Positions 21,066 through 29,797 of a stretch of DNA of 36,444 bases are shown here, in pieces. Below the pieces are notes generated by a model. The model saw only the letters and a list, made by a program, of their open reading frames with translations, was not told the DNA's origin and did no database searches. Positions within the stretch are counted from its first letter, which is position 1. The number at the start of each line of letters is the position of its first letter. Location: assembly GCA_902795865.1 (NCBI GenBank), contig CADBMV010000108.1, positions 1 through 36,444 on the forward strand, written 5' to 3'. The position numbers were made by a program, and so were the translations under genes. Origin of the DNA: an uncultured Erysipelotrichaceae bacterium (GTDB lineage: Bacteria > Bacillota_I > Bacilli_A > Erysipelotrichales > Erysipelotrichaceae).

Positions 21066-21569
21066 ATCTTCTTTTATTATATAGGCATCTAATATTTTCC
21101 CTATGTACATTGTATGAAAATCACCTTCAGGATAATGTCTATCGACTATTTCTGTAGGTATCTTATCTAATTCTTGATCTTGAGAATATATCACTTCACA
21201 CTCTATTGTAAGAGGGTATTGTTTTATACCAGGAGTGTTATTCAGATTTGCTTCTTCTAGTAACACATAATCTGCTTTATTTATATCTTTTCCAGATTGA
21301 CTACCAAATACTTTAAATATTTCTGGATGTATTTCATTGTTCATTGGAACACTGATTGTGAATCTTTCTGTTTTATCAAGTTGTGATTTTGTATATCTTG
21401 ATTGTCTTACATAAACAATAAAAGTTTCTATACCCCAGACAACTCCTAAATGTCCCCAACCAATAACCATACTATTAAATTTATCACCATTAGTATTTAA
21501 TAATAACCCAGGTTTTAAAGATTTTATTATGAGATCAGAATAATCAAATACATTAATTTTTTCTTTCAT
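21057..21569 (-). CDS. Flavin reductase family protein
   Basis: FMN-binding split-barrel protein of the flavin reductase (DIM6/NTAB) family, 170 residues. It would reduce FMN with NAD(P)H or use bound FMN in another redox reaction. Family features are the opening LKPGLLLNTNGDKFNSMVIGW, where substrate and FMN phosphate contacts lie, YVRQSRYTKSQLDKTERFTISVP in the middle, and HTMYIGKILDAYI near the end. Divergent from the MIF-like gene by about 40 bases. AAAGGTGC lies upstream of the ATG as a modest SD. A terminator overlaps its stop codon. The redox partner is unknown. Confidence 0.85.
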   Translation of the reverse strand: MKEKINVFDYSDLIIKSLKPGLLLNTNGDKFNSMVIGWGHLGVVWGIETFIVYVRQSRYTKSQLDKTERFTISVPMNNEIHPEIFKVFGSQSGKDINKADYVLLEEANLNNTPGIKQYPLTIECEVIYSQDQELDKIPTEIVDRHYPEGDFHTMYIGKILDAYIIKEDKI

Positions 21570-21598
21570 GTTGCACCTTTACTTATATAATAATATAT

Positions 21599-21603
21599 GG
21601 AGG
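21599..21603 (+). promoter_or_regulatory. SD that sets the MIF-like start
   Basis: GGAGG, eight bases before the ATG at 21612. It overlaps the earlier in-frame ATG at 21597 and so cannot serve it. The start it supports places proline directly after Met. Confidence 0.75.
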
Positions 21604-21611
21604 ATGAAATT

Positions 21612-21950
21612 ATGCCATATGTACATTTAACCACAAATAAAAATCTATCAGATAATGAAAAAGTAGATATTAAAAACTATATTATTGATGCTATTCAAGT
21701 AATACCAGGCAAAGGTATTTCAAACACCATGGTTCAAATTGATAATGCTTATATGTTTTTTAAACAAGATGATGCCAAATGTATCTTTATTGATTTAAGA
21801 GCATACAAGAAACAAGAAGAAATTCATAAACAAGAATTCATAAATAAAATGTGTGAATATCTAAAAGAAAAGTTAGGTATTGAAAAAGAATTTATTTACT
21901 TTAATATCCTAGAACTTGATTCTTGGGTAACAAACGGACTTATAAAATAA
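21612..21950 (+). CDS. MIF-like tautomerase superfamily protein
   Basis: Small protein of 112 residues with the length and layout of the macrophage migration inhibitory factor group of tautomerases. Members use an N-terminal proline as catalytic base, and the start supported by the GGAGG SD gives MPYVHLTT, so Pro1 would be exposed after Met removal. The earlier ATG at 21597 would add five residues and hide the proline, so I reject it. The last part (EKEFIYFNILELDSWVTNG) aligns by eye with the C-terminal strand and tail of MIF. A strong bidirectional terminator follows. Substrate unknown; phenylpyruvate-type keto-enol chemistry is possible. Confidence 0.8.
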   Translation: MPYVHLTTNKNLSDNEKVDIKNYIIDAIQVIPGKGISNTMVQIDNAYMFFKQDDAKCIFIDLRAYKKQEEIHKQEFINKMCEYLKEKLGIEKEFIYFNILELDSWVTNGLIK

Positions 21951-21971
21951 ATCATCCACAAGGATGATTTA
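21948..21971. terminator. Bidirectional terminator
   Basis: Ten-base-pair perfect stem TAAATCATCC/GGATGATTTA with an ACAA loop. It overlaps the MIF-like stop codon on the plus strand. On the minus strand it lies 41 bases after the small hydrophobic gene and is followed by TTTTAT, so it also ends the maltodextrin operon. Confidence 0.85.
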
Positions 21972-22011
21972 TTATTTATATACATATTAAATAAAAATAT
22001 AATAATTAACT

Positions 22012-22158
22012 CTAACCTATATATCTTGTATATAAGTAATATAAGACACACGCTATTATAATCGTGATAGTCAATTTAAATAATTTTTTAAGACCACTTA
22101 TTATCGCAATTACAACTAGTGCCATTATTACAATATACTTTAAATCCAAACCAAACAT
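22012..22158 (-). CDS. Small hydrophobic protein, 48 aa
   Basis: A short unrecognised gene. It starts MFGLDLKYIVIMALVVIAII, has a Lys-rich turn (GLKKLFKL, about 22-29) and a second hydrophobic stretch TITIIIACVLYYLY, then ends RYIG. This suggests a two-helix hairpin in the membrane. The ATG lies 2 bases after the stop of the MFS permease gene, and GGGGGA seven bases upstream is a good SD located inside the end of that gene. The tight coupling suggests a small partner or stabiliser of the permease. The shared terminator follows. Translation is supported by context only; no homologue is known to me. Confidence 0.6.
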   Translation of the reverse strand: MFGLDLKYIVIMALVVIAIISGLKKLFKLTITIIIACVLYYLYTRYIG

Positions 22159-22160
22159 AA

Positions 22161-23495
22161 CTAATCCCCCATGTCTTCATATGCACTTAAACCTTGTTTA
22201 GCTTCTACTTTTTGATCTCCATGTTTAACATTACTCATAGTCACAAAAGCTAGTAATACAAAGACAGCTGCATATATAAATAATATCTTATATGATATCA
22301 ATCTCATTAAAGTTCCTGCAAGTACCGGTGTTACAATTTGTGCTGCCATAGATGCAGTATAGTAATAACCAGTAAACTTGCCAATATCAGAACCTTTGCA
22401 CATTTCTACTACCATTGGTAAAGAATTAACGTTAATTGCAGCCCAAGCTAAACCAACTAAGGCAAAACTTATATACATAATCACATTGATAGAATCATAA
22501 ATACTAGTTAATACAAATCCAGCCGCAAACATTGTTGCTAATAAGATAACACCCATTAAGATTGTTTTTTTTCTTCCTATTTTTGAGGCAAGATTTCCAA
22601 TAGGAATATAAGAAACTATAGCTCCAGCTGTTGCTACTAATAAACATGTAGATGCACCACCTAAACCTTGTCCCATAACTACTGATACATAAGTAGTAAA
22701 CCAAGTAGTTACTGCATTATATCCAATAAACCATAAGGCAATTGATGCAAGTAAGAACCCTAAAGATTTTTTCACATCTTTAGGAAGTTTTTCATTACCT
22801 TGTCCATCATCTTGAGCTAAATTCCATTCAGGATGTTTTTCTTCTAAAGCTTTATTCTCTTCAACTAGTGCAGGTTCTTTTATAAAAATAAATAATGAAC
22901 CAATAGCTATAAACATTATTGCTGAAACAACAATAAATAATATTTGATAATTCACATGATCTAAACCTACTGTTTTAGAATTTGGATAAAGTATAGCTGC
23001 AACTGCTAAGTAAATAATTCCTCCAACTGCACCCATTAAATTAATAATGGCATTAGCCTTTGATCTTAAAGGTTTAGGTGTCACATCAGGCATTAAAGCA
23101 ACCGCAGGTGATCTATAGATACCCATTGCAATTAATAGTAAGCCTAAAACTGCCACAAAAGATATAACTTTAAACGTACTCGCTTTTGCATAATATGAAT
23201 TATCTATAATTGGTAGAATATTCATCAAAATAATAGCTAAACCTGTACCAAACAAGATAAATGGCATACGCTTACCTATTTTTGTTTCTTTCTTATCTGA
23301 TATAGAACCAAATATAGGCAATAAAAATAAAGCTAATATATTATCGCCAGCCATAATTGCTCCAGAGAAAGTTTCGTTTAAATGGAATGTGTTTGTAAGG
23401 ATTAATGGTATGACATTATCGTACATTTGCCAAAAGGCACTAATCGATAAAAAAGCTAATCCTACAAGAAAAGTTCTTTTATAGTTTAATTTCAT
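22161..23495 (-). CDS. MFS sugar permease, SLC45-like
   Basis: Twelve-helix major facilitator, 444 residues, probably a cation-coupled sugar symporter for maltose, sucrose or similar. The N-terminus SISAFWQMYDNVIPLIL and the loop RSPAVALMPDVTPKPLRSKANAIINLMG are typical of the SLC45/glycoside-symporter-like bacterial group. GSISDKKETKIGKRMPFI is the usual cytoplasmic loop 2-3. AGGGGG lies before the ATG. It sits 14 bases after the MalG-like permease in the maltodextrin operon, giving the cell a second uptake route independent of ATP. It is followed by a 48-residue hydrophobic protein. Confidence 0.9.
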   Translation of the reverse strand: MKLNYKRTFLVGLAFLSISAFWQMYDNVIPLILTNTFHLNETFSGAIMAGDNILALFLLPIFGSISDKKETKIGKRMPFILFGTGLAIILMNILPIIDNSYYAKASTFKVISFVAVLGLLLIAMGIYRSPAVALMPDVTPKPLRSKANAIINLMGAVGGIIYLAVAAILYPNSKTVGLDHVNYQILFIVVSAIMFIAIGSLFIFIKEPALVEENKALEEKHPEWNLAQDDGQGNEKLPKDVKKSLGFLLASIALWFIGYNAVTTWFTTYVSVVMGQGLGGASTCLLVATAGAIVSYIPIGNLASKIGRKKTILMGVILLATMFAAGFVLTSIYDSINVIMYISFALVGLAWAAINVNSLPMVVEMCKGSDIGKFTGYYYTASMAAQIVTPVLAGTLMRLISYKILFIYAAVFVLLAFVTMSNVKHGDQKVEAKQGLSAYEDMGD

Positions 23496-23509
23496 AGCTA
23501 TCCCCCTAT

Positions 23510-24433
23510 TTATCCTTTAACTGCACCAGCAGTTACACCTTCTACATAATATTTTTGTAAAAACATAAATAGCGTCACAATTGGTATTGCAACAACAACA
23601 CATCCAGCCGCAAATTGAGTAAATAGATTTGTATCTGGATGAGTACCAAACAATAATGAATATAAACCTACAGAAACAGTCCAAAACGGAGCATTATCTG
23701 CACCAATAATTACTTTCGCAAAGATAAAATCCATCCATGGTCCTGTAAAACTCATTAAGGCTTGGTAAATAATAATTGGTTTTGCTAAAGGAAGAATTAT
23801 CTTTAAAAATATTTCAAAGTTTGTGCATCCATCTAATTTAGCTGATTCAACCAAAGCATTAGCTATTACATCAAAGAAACCTTTCGCAACTTGAAAACCT
23901 AAACCTGCTCCTGCAGAATAAGCTAATACTAGACCTATCATTGAATATTCTGGATGAGCTGCATTACCTGTTAAACCAATTGATTTTAATAAGAAATAAA
24001 TCGCAATCATTGACATAAATCCAGGAAACAAACCTATGATCATCGCAATATTCATAAATGGCTTACGCATTCTAAATTTTAATTTAGACATACAATAAGC
24101 TACTGATAATACTAAAAATGTTGAAATAACACAATCAATAATCGCGATTATTAAAGTATTAAGCATCCATCTAGGAAAAGCATTTTCAACTCCATAGTAT
24201 TTAGCTGTAAATAAATCTTTAAAATTCTTTAAGCCATAAGCTTTAGGAAAGAAATTACTAGTAACTGTACCAATAAATGTTCCATCAGCTTGATATTCAC
24301 ATCTAAACGCAGATAAAACAATCCACAACAAAGGTACTAACCATATAATAGATAAAATAATTAATATCAAATATGTTAAACCAAGAGAAGTCTTCTGACT
24401 TTTTGATTGACTCTTATACTTTTTATTACTCAT
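23510..24433 (-). CDS. Maltodextrin ABC transporter permease (MalG-like)
   Basis: Inner-membrane subunit with six helices, 307 residues. The EAA loop, which docks on the ATPase, reads ALVESAKLDGCTNFEIFLKI. The C-terminus YVEGVTAGAVKG is the classic MalG/UgpE ending. A charged tail of about 20 residues (Ser/Lys/Gln) precedes the first helix. AGGAGG lies 11 bases before the ATG, and the start overlaps the MalF-like stop in an ATGA. It pairs with the protein at 24430-25857. The predicted cargo is maltose or maltodextrin from the adjacent amylase; substrate identity is inferred. Confidence 0.94.
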   Translation of the reverse strand: MSNKKYKSQSKSQKTSLGLTYLILIILSIIWLVPLLWIVLSAFRCEYQADGTFIGTVTSNFFPKAYGLKNFKDLFTAKYYGVENAFPRWMLNTLIIAIIDCVISTFLVLSVAYCMSKLKFRMRKPFMNIAMIIGLFPGFMSMIAIYFLLKSIGLTGNAAHPEYSMIGLVLAYSAGAGLGFQVAKGFFDVIANALVESAKLDGCTNFEIFLKIILPLAKPIIIYQALMSFTGPWMDFIFAKVIIGADNAPFWTVSVGLYSLLFGTHPDTNLFTQFAAGCVVVAIPIVTLFMFLQKYYVEGVTAGAVKG

Positions 24434-25857
24434 TGGAAAGTATCCTCCTGATTGTATGCTTTAGATCTACGATATGTTAATAAAGTGATTGAAGCAGTTA
24501 TTATGAAAGTAAAGATACCAATAACTGCACCTGTATTATATGAACCTTGATCAATAGTAACTTTATATAACCAAGTTACTAATAAATCAGTACCACCGGC
24601 TTGATAACCTGTATATGCAGGACCACCACCAGTTAATAAGAATATCGAATTAAATGAATTAATATTTCCTACAAAGCTAGATATTAGATATGGTGTAGTT
24701 ACAAATATTACATAAGGTAAAGTAATCTTGAAAAACATTTTAATAGTACTTGCACCATCAACTCTTGCAGCTTCATATAAATCTTGAGGAATATTCATCA
24801 AAATTCCTGATGTCATAAGCATAGTATATGGAATACCTACCCACATATTGATAATTATTACCATCAATTTAGCTAGTCTTTCAGAATCACCAGGACGTAA
24901 TCCTAAAAAACCTATAGGAGAATTTGTTAAACCCAGATTCATTAATAATCCATTAATAGGACCATATTCTCCCAAAAGATTTCTTACTGCTAATAAAGAA
25001 ATAAATTGTGGAATAGCTATTGTTAAGATAAAGATTGTTCTAAAAATCTTTTGACCTTTTAAACCTTTTTTATTAATTAATAAAGCTAGAATTATTCCTC
25101 CGAAGTAACATGTTAAAGTTGCAAAGATTGCCCAAATAAATGTCCAACCAAGTACTGGCATAAATCTGTTTTTTATTTCAATACCTAAAGAACCTTCACC
25201 TGTAAATACTGCTCTAAAATTATTTAGACCATTCCAATAAAATAGATTAGTACCCATTTCATTCATGTCTTGATCATTATACGTAGTAAAAGCTAAGGCA
25301 ATCATAAAGATTGTAGGTAAGATAGTAAACACCAGTGCCGCAATACATGTAGGTGTAAGCATCGTCACATGGAATTTTGAATCAAATAATTCACTTAAAT
25401 CTTGTTTAAAACTACTTGGTTTCTTACCAACTTTTAAATCATTATCAGCCTTAAATGATGAAGAAATATTTTTATCCCATAAGATAAAATAAATAATAAT
25501 TACTGCTATAGTTACAAAACCAAACAGTATTATTAATTTACAATCAGAACCATGAGTAAATACTCCAGTAGTTGGATCAAAAGCTCCTCCTTCTGATAAG
25601 TTCTTTAATGATAAATTTAATAAAGCTTTATAACCATAAGGAGTGTTATTAATCTCTGGGCATAAAACCATAAATAGAATTATACCTATTTGTAATAGTA
25701 GGAATAATAATCCTTTTATATATTGTTTATGATAAATATTACCAGCACCAAAGATAAAATGAGAAAGCTTGGTTCCAATTGAACCATCTTTAAAACGTCT
25801 AGTAAATCTAGATAACAAATTATTCATAGAACTAGTAATATTTATCTTATTATCCAT
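24430..25857 (-). CDS. Maltodextrin ABC transporter permease (MalF-like)
   Basis: Larger permease subunit, 475 residues, about eight helices. Two extra helices lie in the first 140 residues (GLLFLLLQIGIILFMVL and LIILFGFVTIAVIIIYFIL), as in other MalF-type proteins. The EAA loop is DLYEAARVDGASTIKMFFKI. A lumenal loop between the second and third helices carries Gly- and Asp-rich sequence. The gene begins 2 bases after the binding-protein stop without an SD, so it depends on translational coupling. It overlaps the MalG-like gene by four bases. Confidence 0.94.
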   Translation of the reverse strand: MDNKINITSSMNNLLSRFTRRFKDGSIGTKLSHFIFGAGNIYHKQYIKGLLFLLLQIGIILFMVLCPEINNTPYGYKALLNLSLKNLSEGGAFDPTTGVFTHGSDCKLIILFGFVTIAVIIIYFILWDKNISSSFKADNDLKVGKKPSSFKQDLSELFDSKFHVTMLTPTCIAALVFTILPTIFMIALAFTTYNDQDMNEMGTNLFYWNGLNNFRAVFTGEGSLGIEIKNRFMPVLGWTFIWAIFATLTCYFGGIILALLINKKGLKGQKIFRTIFILTIAIPQFISLLAVRNLLGEYGPINGLLMNLGLTNSPIGFLGLRPGDSERLAKLMVIIINMWVGIPYTMLMTSGILMNIPQDLYEAARVDGASTIKMFFKITLPYVIFVTTPYLISSFVGNINSFNSIFLLTGGGPAYTGYQAGGTDLLVTWLYKVTIDQGSYNTGAVIGIFTFIITASITLLTYRRSKAYNQEDTFQ

Positions 25858-25859
25858 AA

Positions 25860-27299
25860 TTATGCTTGTTCAGGTAAACTTGCAGGGAATTCACTAGGAT
25901 TTAAACCATGCATCCATAGATATTCCATCAAATATAATCCTTTTCTAACTCCTTCTAGACTTTCAGTTTCTTCTAAAATTTGATCACCTGTAGTTGGATA
26001 AGCTGTTTTATCTATCATCGCTCTAAATACTGCAGGAGCATTCTTAGAATAATAGTATGTATTTAAGGTGCCTGTTAAGAATGGTTGAGGTATACCCCAT
26101 TCAGCCATTTCTACTTGCATACAAGCTAAGTTGTATTGGCTTTCAGTTACACTTGAAGACTCATAGCAAGATTTAATATATTCGCTTGCTCCTACATATG
26201 CAGGAACATTTAAACAATTCACATATGATTCGTTTTGAATTTCTTTACTTGAAAGATACTTAACAATGTCTTGTAATGCAGTATATTTCTCTGGATCGGA
26301 GTGAGCATTAAGCATAAATACTTTACAATCTGCAAAAGTACCACCACGATAAGTATCACCTGCACTAACTGAACTTAAACCTTCAACAGCTGATTCAGTT
26401 AATGTAAACGTAGGGATTAAAGCAATTCCTAAATTTGTCTCACCTAATGCAGCTTTTGCAGCATTGTAGTGCCAAGCTCCACCAATAACTGCAAGTGCAC
26501 CATTATTTCTTAAATCAGCATCCCATCCATCAGATGATGCCCATTTAAAGCCATTAGGATCTGCAGCATATTCTTGTAGCCATCTAACAATCGCAACAGT
26601 ATCATCACCTTGACAATTAGATACGCCTTTAGAGCCACCAGAAACAGCTTCAGCACCTTCATAGATTTTTACGCTTGTGGAATGATCATCAACTTTTGTT
26701 GCTAGTAAAGCAAAAGACATATTATATCCATCATCACCAGTAACCGTAATAGCTTTAGTTCCTGCAGCTTGTGCAGCTTGTCTTAAACCTTCAAATGATT
26801 GTGCTTGCTCATCAGTAACTTTTTCTTTGTTGTAATAAAGGAATAGAGCTTGAGAAATATATGGAACACCATATAAATATTCTTTTCCATCTAAAGTAGA
26901 ATATATTACATTCTTAAAAGAAGCAGGATTATCAGCTAACACTTGATTAATTAAACTTTCATCCGCAAATGGTTTTGCACATTGAGTACTAGCTAATTTA
27001 CCAATATTGTCATGTGCTGTTGTATAAATATCTGCAGCAGCAGATGGGTCGTTTGTAACAACACCTGCAACAGCACCAGTATCCATTCCTTTAACTGTGA
27101 TAGTGTAACCAAGATCTGGATGTTCTTCTACATATTTGTCACAAACACCTTGGTAAAACTCTGCTGATTCTTCACCAACCCAAATCACAATCTCTGAGCT
27201 TCCTTTCTTATTTCCAGAAGAACCATCTGAACCACAAGCCACTAGGCATGTGATCATAAATAAAGCTAATAATAAACTTATAATTTTTTTCATTTTCAA
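25860..27299 (-). CDS. Sugar-binding lipoprotein of the maltodextrin ABC importer
   Basis: Extracellular solute-binding protein, family 1, 479 residues. The signal is followed by lipobox LVAC with Cys22 and a Gly/Ser/Lys linker. The mature start SEIVIWVGEESAEFYQGVCDKYVEEHPD is typical of MalE-type proteins. Many aromatic residues in the later part (for example WHYNAAK and QVEMAEWGIPQPF) suit stacking on sugar rings. AGGAGG lies 8 bases before the first of two close ATG codons, which supports the full length. It lies between the RDD protein and MalF-like genes. The amylase two genes upstream suggests maltodextrin as ligand. Confidence 0.93.
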   Translation of the reverse strand: MKMKKIISLLLALFMITCLVACGSDGSSGNKKGSSEIVIWVGEESAEFYQGVCDKYVEEHPDLGYTITVKGMDTGAVAGVVTNDPSAAADIYTTAHDNIGKLASTQCAKPFADESLINQVLADNPASFKNVIYSTLDGKEYLYGVPYISQALFLYYNKEKVTDEQAQSFEGLRQAAQAAGTKAITVTGDDGYNMSFALLATKVDDHSTSVKIYEGAEAVSGGSKGVSNCQGDDTVAIVRWLQEYAADPNGFKWASSDGWDADLRNNGALAVIGGAWHYNAAKAALGETNLGIALIPTFTLTESAVEGLSSVSAGDTYRGGTFADCKVFMLNAHSDPEKYTALQDIVKYLSSKEIQNESYVNCLNVPAYVGASEYIKSCYESSSVTESQYNLACMQVEMAEWGIPQPFLTGTLNTYYYSKNAPAVFRAMIDKTAYPTTGDQILEETESLEGVRKGLYLMEYLWMHGLNPSEFPASLPEQA

Positions 27300-27305
27300 T
27301 ACCTC

Positions 27306-27926
27306 CTAATCAAATGAACTATATGTTAACTTCTCTATATACATAGTAGAAGTCAAATAATCACAAAGTGTTTTATTTTTCTTATTCAATATCAACACAA
27401 TAAACCTTAATACCAATACAAATACAAACGAGTAGATACCAGTCCAAGGATAAACCATCGCACTTACTATATAGATAAATATAAATCGCAATAGTATTTG
27501 TCCTGAATTAATCTTTCTTTGTCTTGATTCATCAAACAACATAACCCCAGTTAACAGTTTTCCTAAACTTACACCATCCTTATTCATTAAAGGAATTACT
27601 AGGAACAATATAATTTCTGCAATAAATCCTTCTAATAGTTTCAATATGTAACTATGTAAATTAGCGGCAAACACTTCATCTTGATACACTTTATCATTAA
27701 GCAATATTTCATTAATCTTATCTACATCACTATTTTTAAGAACTTCTTGCTCAATGGCAGTATAGTTTGCTACATGATTTTTATAAGTAGCTGCAATCCC
27801 AGTAGATTCAATCACAATACTTAATATAATCACTAAGATAAATAAACAAACTGTATCAAAACCATCACACGTTAATCTTTTAATCAAGTTTGGTTTTTCA
27901 TTAACACCAATTTCTTCTTCTAACAT
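27306..27926 (-). CDS. RDD family membrane protein
   Basis: Integral membrane protein of 206 residues with about four to five helices. The RDD pattern is visible in LIKRLTCDGFDTVCLF near the N-terminus, and the second half has the hallmark KDGVSLGKLLTGVMLFDESRQRKI followed by helices. A soluble segment of about 55 residues lies between the first two helices. It overlaps the end of the ATPase gene by seven bases; GAGG is only two bases from the ATG, so start and coupling are uncertain. Placement inside a sugar importer operon is unusual. RDD proteins have mixed or unknown roles; some act as ion exchangers. Confidence 0.85.
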   Translation of the reverse strand: MLEEEIGVNEKPNLIKRLTCDGFDTVCLFILVIILSIVIESTGIAATYKNHVANYTAIEQEVLKNSDVDKINEILLNDKVYQDEVFAANLHSYILKLLEGFIAEIILFLVIPLMNKDGVSLGKLLTGVMLFDESRQRKINSGQILLRFIFIYIVSAMVYPWTGIYSFVFVLVLRFIVLILNKKNKTLCDYLTSTMYIEKLTYSSFD

Positions 27927-29797
27927 ATCCTCATATCTATCTTTGTTGAATAAACAAGTATATCCTTGCTATCAAAAGCTAAATTCACATTCTTTTTATC
28001 AAAATCTCTATCTACATTAATTAATACTTCATTAGATTTTGTTTTGATTCTAGCAAACCTAACATTACCATAATCTAATATCTCAAATACTTCACCATAT
28101 AAACCTTCATCAGCTAATTTAATATCGTTTCTTTTTATGCAGTATTTATATGTATTTTTATATGAATCATCACCATCAATAGAATTAATCTTATAACCGT
28201 TTTCTCTTGGTGCTTCTAATTTATAACCATCAATACTATAAAAGAAATGTAATACATTTTCTTTGTTTTCTCTTACTTCAGTTTTACTAAAGTCCCCTAT
28301 AAATTCTTCATAGTCATCAATTTGTTTTAATAATTGTTTGTTGTCACTAATTAAATTAACTTTTTCATTACAAATACTAAAACTATATTCTTCGTTTTCC
28401 TTAACATCGTCATCTACTAAGGCAAATATATAAGAACCATTATTATCTAAATAAGCTAAATTCTTATCATCAACTTTTTCTATTTTTACTACTTTTAATT
28501 TAAAATCATTGCCCTTTACAATCGCATGAGGTGGAACACTCAAATCAAATTGCTTAATATCTTTTAAAACATTTTTAAATACTTCAGGCATATTGATGCT
28601 AGTGTTTATTAAATTCATCTTTTCTAAATCGCTAGATACATGAATAGTATTATATTCAGGAATCTTATTCATTAAAGTTATTTCTGTATCATGATCAAAT
28701 AGATGAATTTTATTATTGTTAGGTAGAGCATAGACAACATCACCTATATTGATGTCGTCTTGTTCAACAACCTTCACAACAACACTATCACCTTCATCTT
28801 TTAAACTAAATTCTTGAAGTTTATCACCAAGTTTACCATAAACAATAGTTTCATTTCCTAATCTTTCAATATTACTTATCACAAGTTTTAAACCATTACC
28901 ATCTTTATTTAGAATTAAATGTTCAGGTCTAATACCTAATATAACTTTTTTATCACCAGTTAAATAAGAATCGTGTACTTTAGATACATCTTCATAAGAA
29001 ATATTAATCTTATCACCTTTATCAAAACTTACTTCTACGTTGTCCTTATCTCTTTTTAATGTCACATCAAAGAAATTCATTTGTGGAGAACCAATAAAAC
29101 CTGCCACAAATTTGTTGTATGGTTGATTATATAAGTTCATAGGTGTATCGATTTGTTGAACATAACCAAGTTTCATAACCACAATTCTAGTACCCATGGT
29201 CATAGCTTCTACTTGGTCATGAGTTACATAGATGAATGTTGTTTTTAAGCTTTTATGTAAAGCAGTTATTTCACTACGCATTGTGGATCTTAGTTTTGCA
29301 TCCAAGTTACTTAAAGGTTCATCCAATAAAAATACTTTAGGATCTCTAACTAAAGCTCTACCCAAGGCTACTCTTTGTCTTTGACCACCAGACATTGCAC
29401 GAGGTTGTCTATCTAAGTAATCCTCAATGTCTAGCATCTTTGCGGCCTTCATAACTCTTTGTTTAATTTCATCTTCTGGCATTTTTCTATTTCTTAAACC
29501 AAACGCCATATTTTCATAAACAGTCATGTGTGGATATAATGCATAACTTTGGAAAACCATCGCAACATCTCTATCCTTTGGTTCCATATCGTTAACCAAA
29601 GTATCACCAATAAAAAGATCCCCTGCTGTAATTGATTCTAATCCTGCTATCATTCTTAATGTAGTAGATTTACCACAACCTGATGGCCCTACAAACACTA
29701 TAAATTCTTGATCTTCTATATCAATGGAAAAATCATTTACGGCCTTTTGACCATTGTCATAAACTTTATAAATATGGGAAAGTTTTAAATTAGCCAT
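27920..29797 (-). CDS. MsmX/UgpC-like ABC ATPase with a long C-terminal extension
   Basis: Energises the maltodextrin importer. The ATPase domain has Walker A GPSGCGKST (37-45), Q-loop Gln83, signature MSGGQ (135-139), Walker B LLDEP (Asp159, Glu160) and H-loop His193. A normal TOBE/OB domain follows (about 240-375). MalK/MsmX proteins usually stop near 370 residues, but this one continues to 625. The extra part contains what look like two beta-barrel-like segments (about 431-484 and 565-625), the last with YGEVFEILDYGNVRFARI resembling another TOBE repeat. GGAGG lies 5 bases before the ATG. The extension may sense a ligand or bind a partner; that is inference. Confidence 0.94.
   Translation of the reverse strand: MANLKLSHIYKVYDNGQKAVNDFSIDIEDQEFIVFVGPSGCGKSTTLRMIAGLESITAGDLFIGDTLVNDMEPKDRDVAMVFQSYALYPHMTVYENMAFGLRNRKMPEDEIKQRVMKAAKMLDIEDYLDRQPRAMSGGQRQRVALGRALVRDPKVFLLDEPLSNLDAKLRSTMRSEITALHKSLKTTFIYVTHDQVEAMTMGTRIVVMKLGYVQQIDTPMNLYNQPYNKFVAGFIGSPQMNFFDVTLKRDKDNVEVSFDKGDKINISYEDVSKVHDSYLTGDKKVILGIRPEHLILNKDGNGLKLVISNIERLGNETIVYGKLGDKLQEFSLKDEGDSVVVKVVEQDDINIGDVVYALPNNNKIHLFDHDTEITLMNKIPEYNTIHVSSDLEKMNLINTSINMPEVFKNVLKDIKQFDLSVPPHAIVKGNDFKLKVVKIEKVDDKNLAYLDNNGSYIFALVDDDVKENEEYSFSICNEKVNLISDNKQLLKQIDDYEEFIGDFSKTEVRENKENVLHFFYSIDGYKLEAPRENGYKINSIDGDDSYKNTYKYCIKRNDIKLADEGLYGEVFEILDYGNVRFARIKTKSNEVLINVDRDFDKKNVNLAFDSKDILVYSTKIDMRIC

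Follow-up and report, generated by a model that had tools for sequence, protein, structure and literature searches.

A 48-codon frame behind an MFS permease gene of an uncultured Erysipelotrichaceae bacterium: a probable membrane protein gene of a thin family with changing neighbours

An open frame of 48 codons lying directly behind an MFS permease gene of an uncultured Erysipelotrichaceae bacterium (GCA_902795865.1, contig CADBMV010000108.1) is very probably a real gene. We hold it to be reasonably likely that this gene specifies a 48-residue cationic integral membrane protein of a thin, fast-evolving family, and that the partner of this protein is not the neighbouring permease. That the frame is a small membrane protein gene, as proposed in the initial annotation, is supported by the frame statistics, the ribosome binding site (RBS), the homologues and the purifying selection seen in two pairs of homologues. 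The window referred to below is the whole stretch of DNA analysed, 36,444 nucleotides in length, and the features concerned are the following:

21946..21973 (no strand assigned): terminator-like hairpin of 12 pairs with a loop of 4, between two convergent genes
22012..22158 (-): small cationic, hydrophobic 48-codon frame, with two hydrophobic stretches flanking GLKKLFKL
22165..22170 (-): Shine-Dalgarno-like GGGGGA within the last MFS codons (ATG GGG GAT), 6 bases before the ATG of the small frame
22161..23495 (-): MFS permease of 444 aa, directly upstream of the small frame; Pfam MFS_1 (6.7e-42) and MFS_2 (4.9e-18), both above cut-off
23510..29797 (-): MalG-like, MalF-like, solute-binding, RDD-family and MalK/UgpC-like genes, in the same direction with gaps of less than 20 nt

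The small frame begins with ATG and is open throughout, and its setting is as earlier described: the Shine-Dalgarno-like site lies inside the end of the permease gene, the ATG follows 2 nt past the MFS stop (22163..22161), and a single terminator-like hairpin stands 38 nt 3' of the small-frame stop, in a region whose shuffles average 0.2 such hairpins. This hairpin is common to the small frame and to the convergent gene at 21597..21950. The remark that such a frame is too short for most gene callers was overstated; a common gene caller accepts frames from 90 nt. GGGGG-type sites occur also in the leaders of other genes of the window, that of the MFS gene included, so the RBS of the small frame is not unusual in type. 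The leaders of the small frame (22159..22171, minus strand, GGGGGATTAGTTATG) and of the MFS gene (23496..23505, minus strand, GGGGGATAGCTATG) are strikingly alike. The convergent gene (plus strand, 117 aa) has a tautomerase-like PF14552 match [0.00016, 22.1 bits], which is below the cut-off of 28.

Two hydrophobic stretches around Lys residues are evident in the window protein, and based upon hydropathy and charge we would place the Lys-rich segment in the turn of a hairpin, on the cytoplasmic face. The two-helix hairpin is nevertheless less secure than had been stated: the two hydrophobic stretches are there, but AlphaFold2, run on the single sequence, returned one continuous helix from residue 2 to 47 (mean pLDDT 89.3, pTM 0.45) and no hairpin, an alignment-free model that is weak evidence either way. 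The permease reached no cut-off in NCBIfam, and a sugar is an unproven candidate for its substrate. The mal genes, the MFS gene and the small frame may together form one operon. In the MalK/UgpC-like ATPase (27920..29797, minus strand, 625 aa) the NCBIfam, ABC, OB and TOBE models stop by about residue 372, and Pfam matches none of the roughly 250 C-terminal residues significantly.

Relatives of the small protein were found by successive searches, in which genomes (G) and loci (L) carry our own numbers. The first scan of genome contigs with the small protein gave no match, and when 61 genomes were searched with the protein alone, 19 had E values up to 1, as chance might give. Seven loci were read after this search and two (L003, L019) kept on their frame and surroundings. 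G034 (E 0.0116) and G006 (E 0.988), both of the window's own genus, have stand-alone frames of 50 codons with GGGG(G)AT upstream; since these two were chosen by looking at the frames, statistical support for them has to be taken from other tests. A profile of three members (the window protein, G034 and G006), run over 120 genomes, reached G082, in another genus, at 1.9e-4; of six loci read besides the window's own, L048 was kept, and L062 was kept later. G031 entered the profile by eye after an E value of 0.0661. The four-member profile (A2), run over 272 genomes of the taxonomic family, gave 21 matches at E values of 0.02 or below, four of them training sequences, and the five best of the others (1.2e-5 to 6.3e-4) were small frames, all from one further genus. 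Eleven loci were read at this stage and seven kept (L159–L163, L165 and, for G141, L167); the weak loci L168, L169, L170 and L174 were dropped on frame and surroundings.

An eleven-member profile, with G031 in it, found two new members that it did not contain, G141 (7.4e-17) and G153 (1.6e-9). It matched 13 genomes at 1.6e-9 or better, followed by a gap to 4.8e-5; in the other 11 of the 24 matched genomes the match lay within a frame of at least 127 aa or ran across stops. With thirteen members (A7) the profile recovered its own 13 sequences and no further member from 315 genomes of the order, the matches in seven further genomes being 3.8e-5 or weaker and in frames of at least 192 aa. The window protein scores 2.8e-13 with A7, a profile that contains it. 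The family thus delimited occupies 13 genomes of Erysipelotrichaceae (4 of the 36 of the window's own genus, 8 of a second genus and 1 of a third), with one copy found per genome and members of 42 to 65 residues as delimited here. Its pattern is a hydrophobic stretch, then roughly (I/L)(I/L)KK(L/I)(F/W)xLVKF, then another hydrophobic stretch. The same hydrophobic-basic-hydrophobic pattern is seen in a 73-aa frame of G052 (L002, 1459..1680, plus strand; E 0.00486 with the single protein), which is reminiscent of TcpD-like conjugation proteins; for the final profile at an E value of 0.001, the matches listed do not include this frame.

How far these likenesses reflect descent was judged in several ways. 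A decoy made by reversing the sequence and run over the same 272 genomes matched 12 of them (best 0.0036), including the family members G034 and G006; part of the signal is therefore the hydrophobic-Lys-hydrophobic pattern itself. Comparison of profile with profile, three members of the own genus against six of the second, gave a probability of 97, whereas the reversed decoy gave 65. Tested pair by pair against shuffles that preserve the pattern, 20 of 21 pairs had a score reached by at most 8 in 1000 shuffles, the exception being G006–G185 (111 in 1000); the window protein against G185 scored 87, reached by 0 of 1000, and this pair and the profile comparison support its place in the family independently of its inclusion in A7. 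Two pairs from the second genus gave dN 0.06/dS 0.24 and dN 0.37/dS 1.45 (dN/dS about 0.25), in keeping with a protein that is translated and constrained; for the window protein itself no homologue close enough for this test was found. Against the preferred reading, that of a genuine gene whose partner lies elsewhere, stand the weakness of the first links and their choice by inspection, the addition of G031 by eye, the pair G006–G185, the matches of the decoy, a codon score below that of larger membrane genes, the single helix of the AlphaFold2 model and the presence of the gene in only those few (4/36) members of the genus.

The genes beside the family members, whose names were read from the sequences by eye and not by way of a family search, are quite different from one another. 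They include a hydrolase-like gene in G034 (63 nt away), a radical-activase-like gene in G006 (60 nt), a uppP-like gene in G082 (the small gene 12 nt after it), a coaX-like gene in G185 (5 nt) and a chorismate-mutase-like gene in G160. G184, G187 and G141 have a HAD-like gene, one for a 160-aa membrane protein and, behind, a purC-like gene. Surroundings are shared within one genus by G184, G187 and G141, and also by G160 and G153. One would conclude from this variety that the window protein is probably free-standing and no dedicated partner of its permease. Activase-like genes occur near the small genes of both G006 and G185, and GltD-like genes near those of G034 and G197, but their arrangement differs; we regarded shared neighbours as suggestive only and made no use of them as a clue to function. 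A gene of 149 to 173 aa is common to G034 (L155, 2217..2738, minus strand) and G006 (L156, 5787..6236, minus strand), within 2 to 4 kb of the small gene.

The initial annotation saw in the small protein a membrane partner that modulates the permease. Spelled out, this would be a dedicated MFS regulator, made by translational coupling from one transcript with the permease and bound to it in the membrane, by analogy with SgrT and PtsG. The gap of 2 nt, an RBS inside the MFS gene and one terminator after both genes speak for it, as does the existence, according to passages of a review (PMC10710835), of small proteins which modulate transporters. SgrT of E. coli (43 aa) is similar in size and acts on a sugar transporter, inhibiting the glucose transporter PtsG, and the same passages give an AlphaFold model of it as a helical hairpin. 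It differs in being encoded within the regulatory RNA SgrS; for the protein described here no conserved link to a transporter was found. AcrZ of E. coli (49 aa), which modulates the AcrB pump, is again similar in size and has a membrane-embedded helix, but its partner is established, unlike that of the small protein. MgtS, MgtR and MgtU, which act on transporters by inhibition or by steering their FtsH-dependent turnover, are membrane proteins acting on membrane partners, as is proposed here; they are shorter (28–31 aa) and their partners are known. All are likened by description, not by sequence, to the small protein on the strength of what those passages (PMC10710835) say of them. Such precedents make the idea of a partner reasonable in kind, though the genomic comparison does not support it here.

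That comparison took two forms. At an E value of 1e-40 the MFS gene was matched in 22 of the 61 genomes, the window's own included, all from its own genus. A second collection, which overlaps the 61-genome set and is not additive to it, consists of the best 80 of 560 confirmed MFS loci, 73–87% identical, with titles that name Erysipelotrichaceae, Solobacterium, Oscillospiraceae, Lachnospiraceae, Clostridia and others. Of these best 80, 76 extend 250 nt or more past the permease gene, and none of the 76 has the small frame behind it, so that the search proposed earlier, for the same small frame behind the same permease in relatives, ended negatively. A loose test, for a hydrophobic frame of 30–90 aa near the MFS stop, was passed by seven of the 76 (L075, L081, L085, L088, L098, L105 and L153), two of which (L075 and L081) start within 15 nt of that stop; as homologues all seven were rejected, none having, by eye, a Lys segment between hydrophobic stretches or an evident RBS. 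Three of the 22 MFS-bearing genomes also hold a family member, namely the window's own, G006 and G031, and in the last two, which are sister species, the two genes are on different contigs, with the small gene well inside its contig. The small gene is present also in G034, where nothing matches the MFS at 1e-40, although the completeness of this assembly is 72%.

Nor does a conserved mal-MFS-small operon emerge. The malG-like genes of G015, G011 and G002, 88–90% identical and the three closest relatives, precede other genes and are followed by neither the MFS gene nor the small frame, G011 offering only about 0.5 kb there. By our own count malG stands directly before the MFS gene at none of 79 named loci, and no malG, malF or solute-binding match at 1e-20 was seen in the 40 of the 80 MFS loci covered. 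The arrangement thus looks peculiar to the window's own genome. A terminator within 150 nt after the MFS gene was found by a simple rule at 26 of 79 loci, which was not counted as evidence. The MFS gene (22161..23495, minus strand) is 73–87% identical across Erysipelotrichaceae- and Clostridia-titled loci (L075–L154, the best 80 of 560), a likeness that suggests strong constraint or transfer from one lineage to another. Elsewhere HAD-phosphatase-like genes often precede the MFS gene (at 13 and 7 of the 64 loci where an MFS frame was called), and a glycerophosphodiesterase-like gene is near it in 33 of the 80 loci, the names in both cases being read by eye.

Of the earlier proposal, then, the membrane protein gene is likely to stand, and the coupling to the permease is opposed by the absence of the small frame from all 76 loci, by the separate contigs of G006 and G031, by the small gene of G034, where no MFS match was found, and by homologues that adjoin non-transport genes. 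The partner is probably not the MFS permease, and a dedicated regulator seems to us unlikely. In its favour it may be added that the genomes compared do not include very close relatives of the window's own species, and since linkage is not needed in all known transporter regulators, SgrT being an instance (passages of PMC10710835), its lack lowers the claim without excluding it. Modulation of the permease may be confined to the window's own strain, where it is a candidate.

A second alternative is that the frame is open by chance, AT-rich intergenic DNA reading as a hydrophobic peptide where there is no gene. AT-rich DNA favours hydrophobic codons. When the 210 nt that follow the MFS stop were shuffled with dinucleotides preserved, a frame of at least 48 aa starting within 20 nt arose in 35 of 5000 shuffles, and one anywhere on that strand in 64 of 5000. 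The codon log-odds of the small frame are +7.4 bits, those of the other two frames and the antisense being negative, yet per codon the score is weak, 0.155 against 0.30–0.52 in five larger membrane genes. Taken alone, these statistics and the RBS are suggestive and not conclusive. Against chance are the RBS built with GGG, which over 30 genes of the window, the MFS gene among them, accounts for just 16 of 786 glycine codons, the terminator sitting after the frame, and the resemblance to stand-alone frames in other genomes; we regard a chance frame as quite improbable.

No described family fits the small protein in Pfam, NCBIfam, PHROGs, PADLOC or the PDB. The best E value was 0.044 in Pfam (11 members), 0.025 in NCBIfam (13 members) and 0.27 in a PDB profile search. 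CwrA [NCBIfam NF058608] was considered and rejected: 3 of the 13 members match it weakly (best E 0.032), two of ten members scanned singly matched, with 14.8 and 7.8 bits where the cut-off is 75, and of the 36 genomes of the genus 13 had E values up to 1 and none rose above the cut-off, while 6 of 14 control genomes matched as well. A literature search on small transmembrane proteins and sORFs of Erysipelotrichaceae returned no paper, from which we make no wider claim of absence.

Least probable of all, and hardly to be expected, is a small peptide with toxic or antibacterial action, of the sort of type I toxins or leaderless bacteriocins, which would be variably located as such genes travel: a small, hydrophobic, net positive product and a variable genomic location would fit, but the 13 members gave no PADLOC match at E 1 and nothing better than 0.11 in PHROGs, the plasmid search gave no match at E 1, one copy is found per genome, Rfam has no match in 21500..23600, and promoter-like sites at the locus are no commoner than in shuffles.

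If the gene is genuine and its partner lies elsewhere, as we prefer, the small frame would be the last to be read on the mal-MFS transcript, its translation depending on coupling at the MFS stop or on re-initiation there. Its product would be membrane-embedded, the Lys-rich segment lying at the cytoplasmic face, and its partner would be something other than the permease that is present wherever the gene lies, whether a core membrane complex, a protease or the lipid phase. The gene would change its neighbours among genomes and in this one end the mal-MFS transcript. On a broader view, to which we give about equal belief and doubt, these proteins of some 50 residues would form an undescribed cationic family, one per genome and fast-evolving, which moves between unrelated operons of Erysipelotrichaceae, assists a core membrane machine and not its neighbours, and borrows the RBS context and transcript of whichever gene precedes it.

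Functions are often assigned to small membrane proteins on the strength of the adjoining gene, a guide that serves poorly in this case; a gap of 2 nt in one genome is not to be taken as the mark of a functional pair. If translated, the family would offer 13 natural variants with which to seek the true partner.
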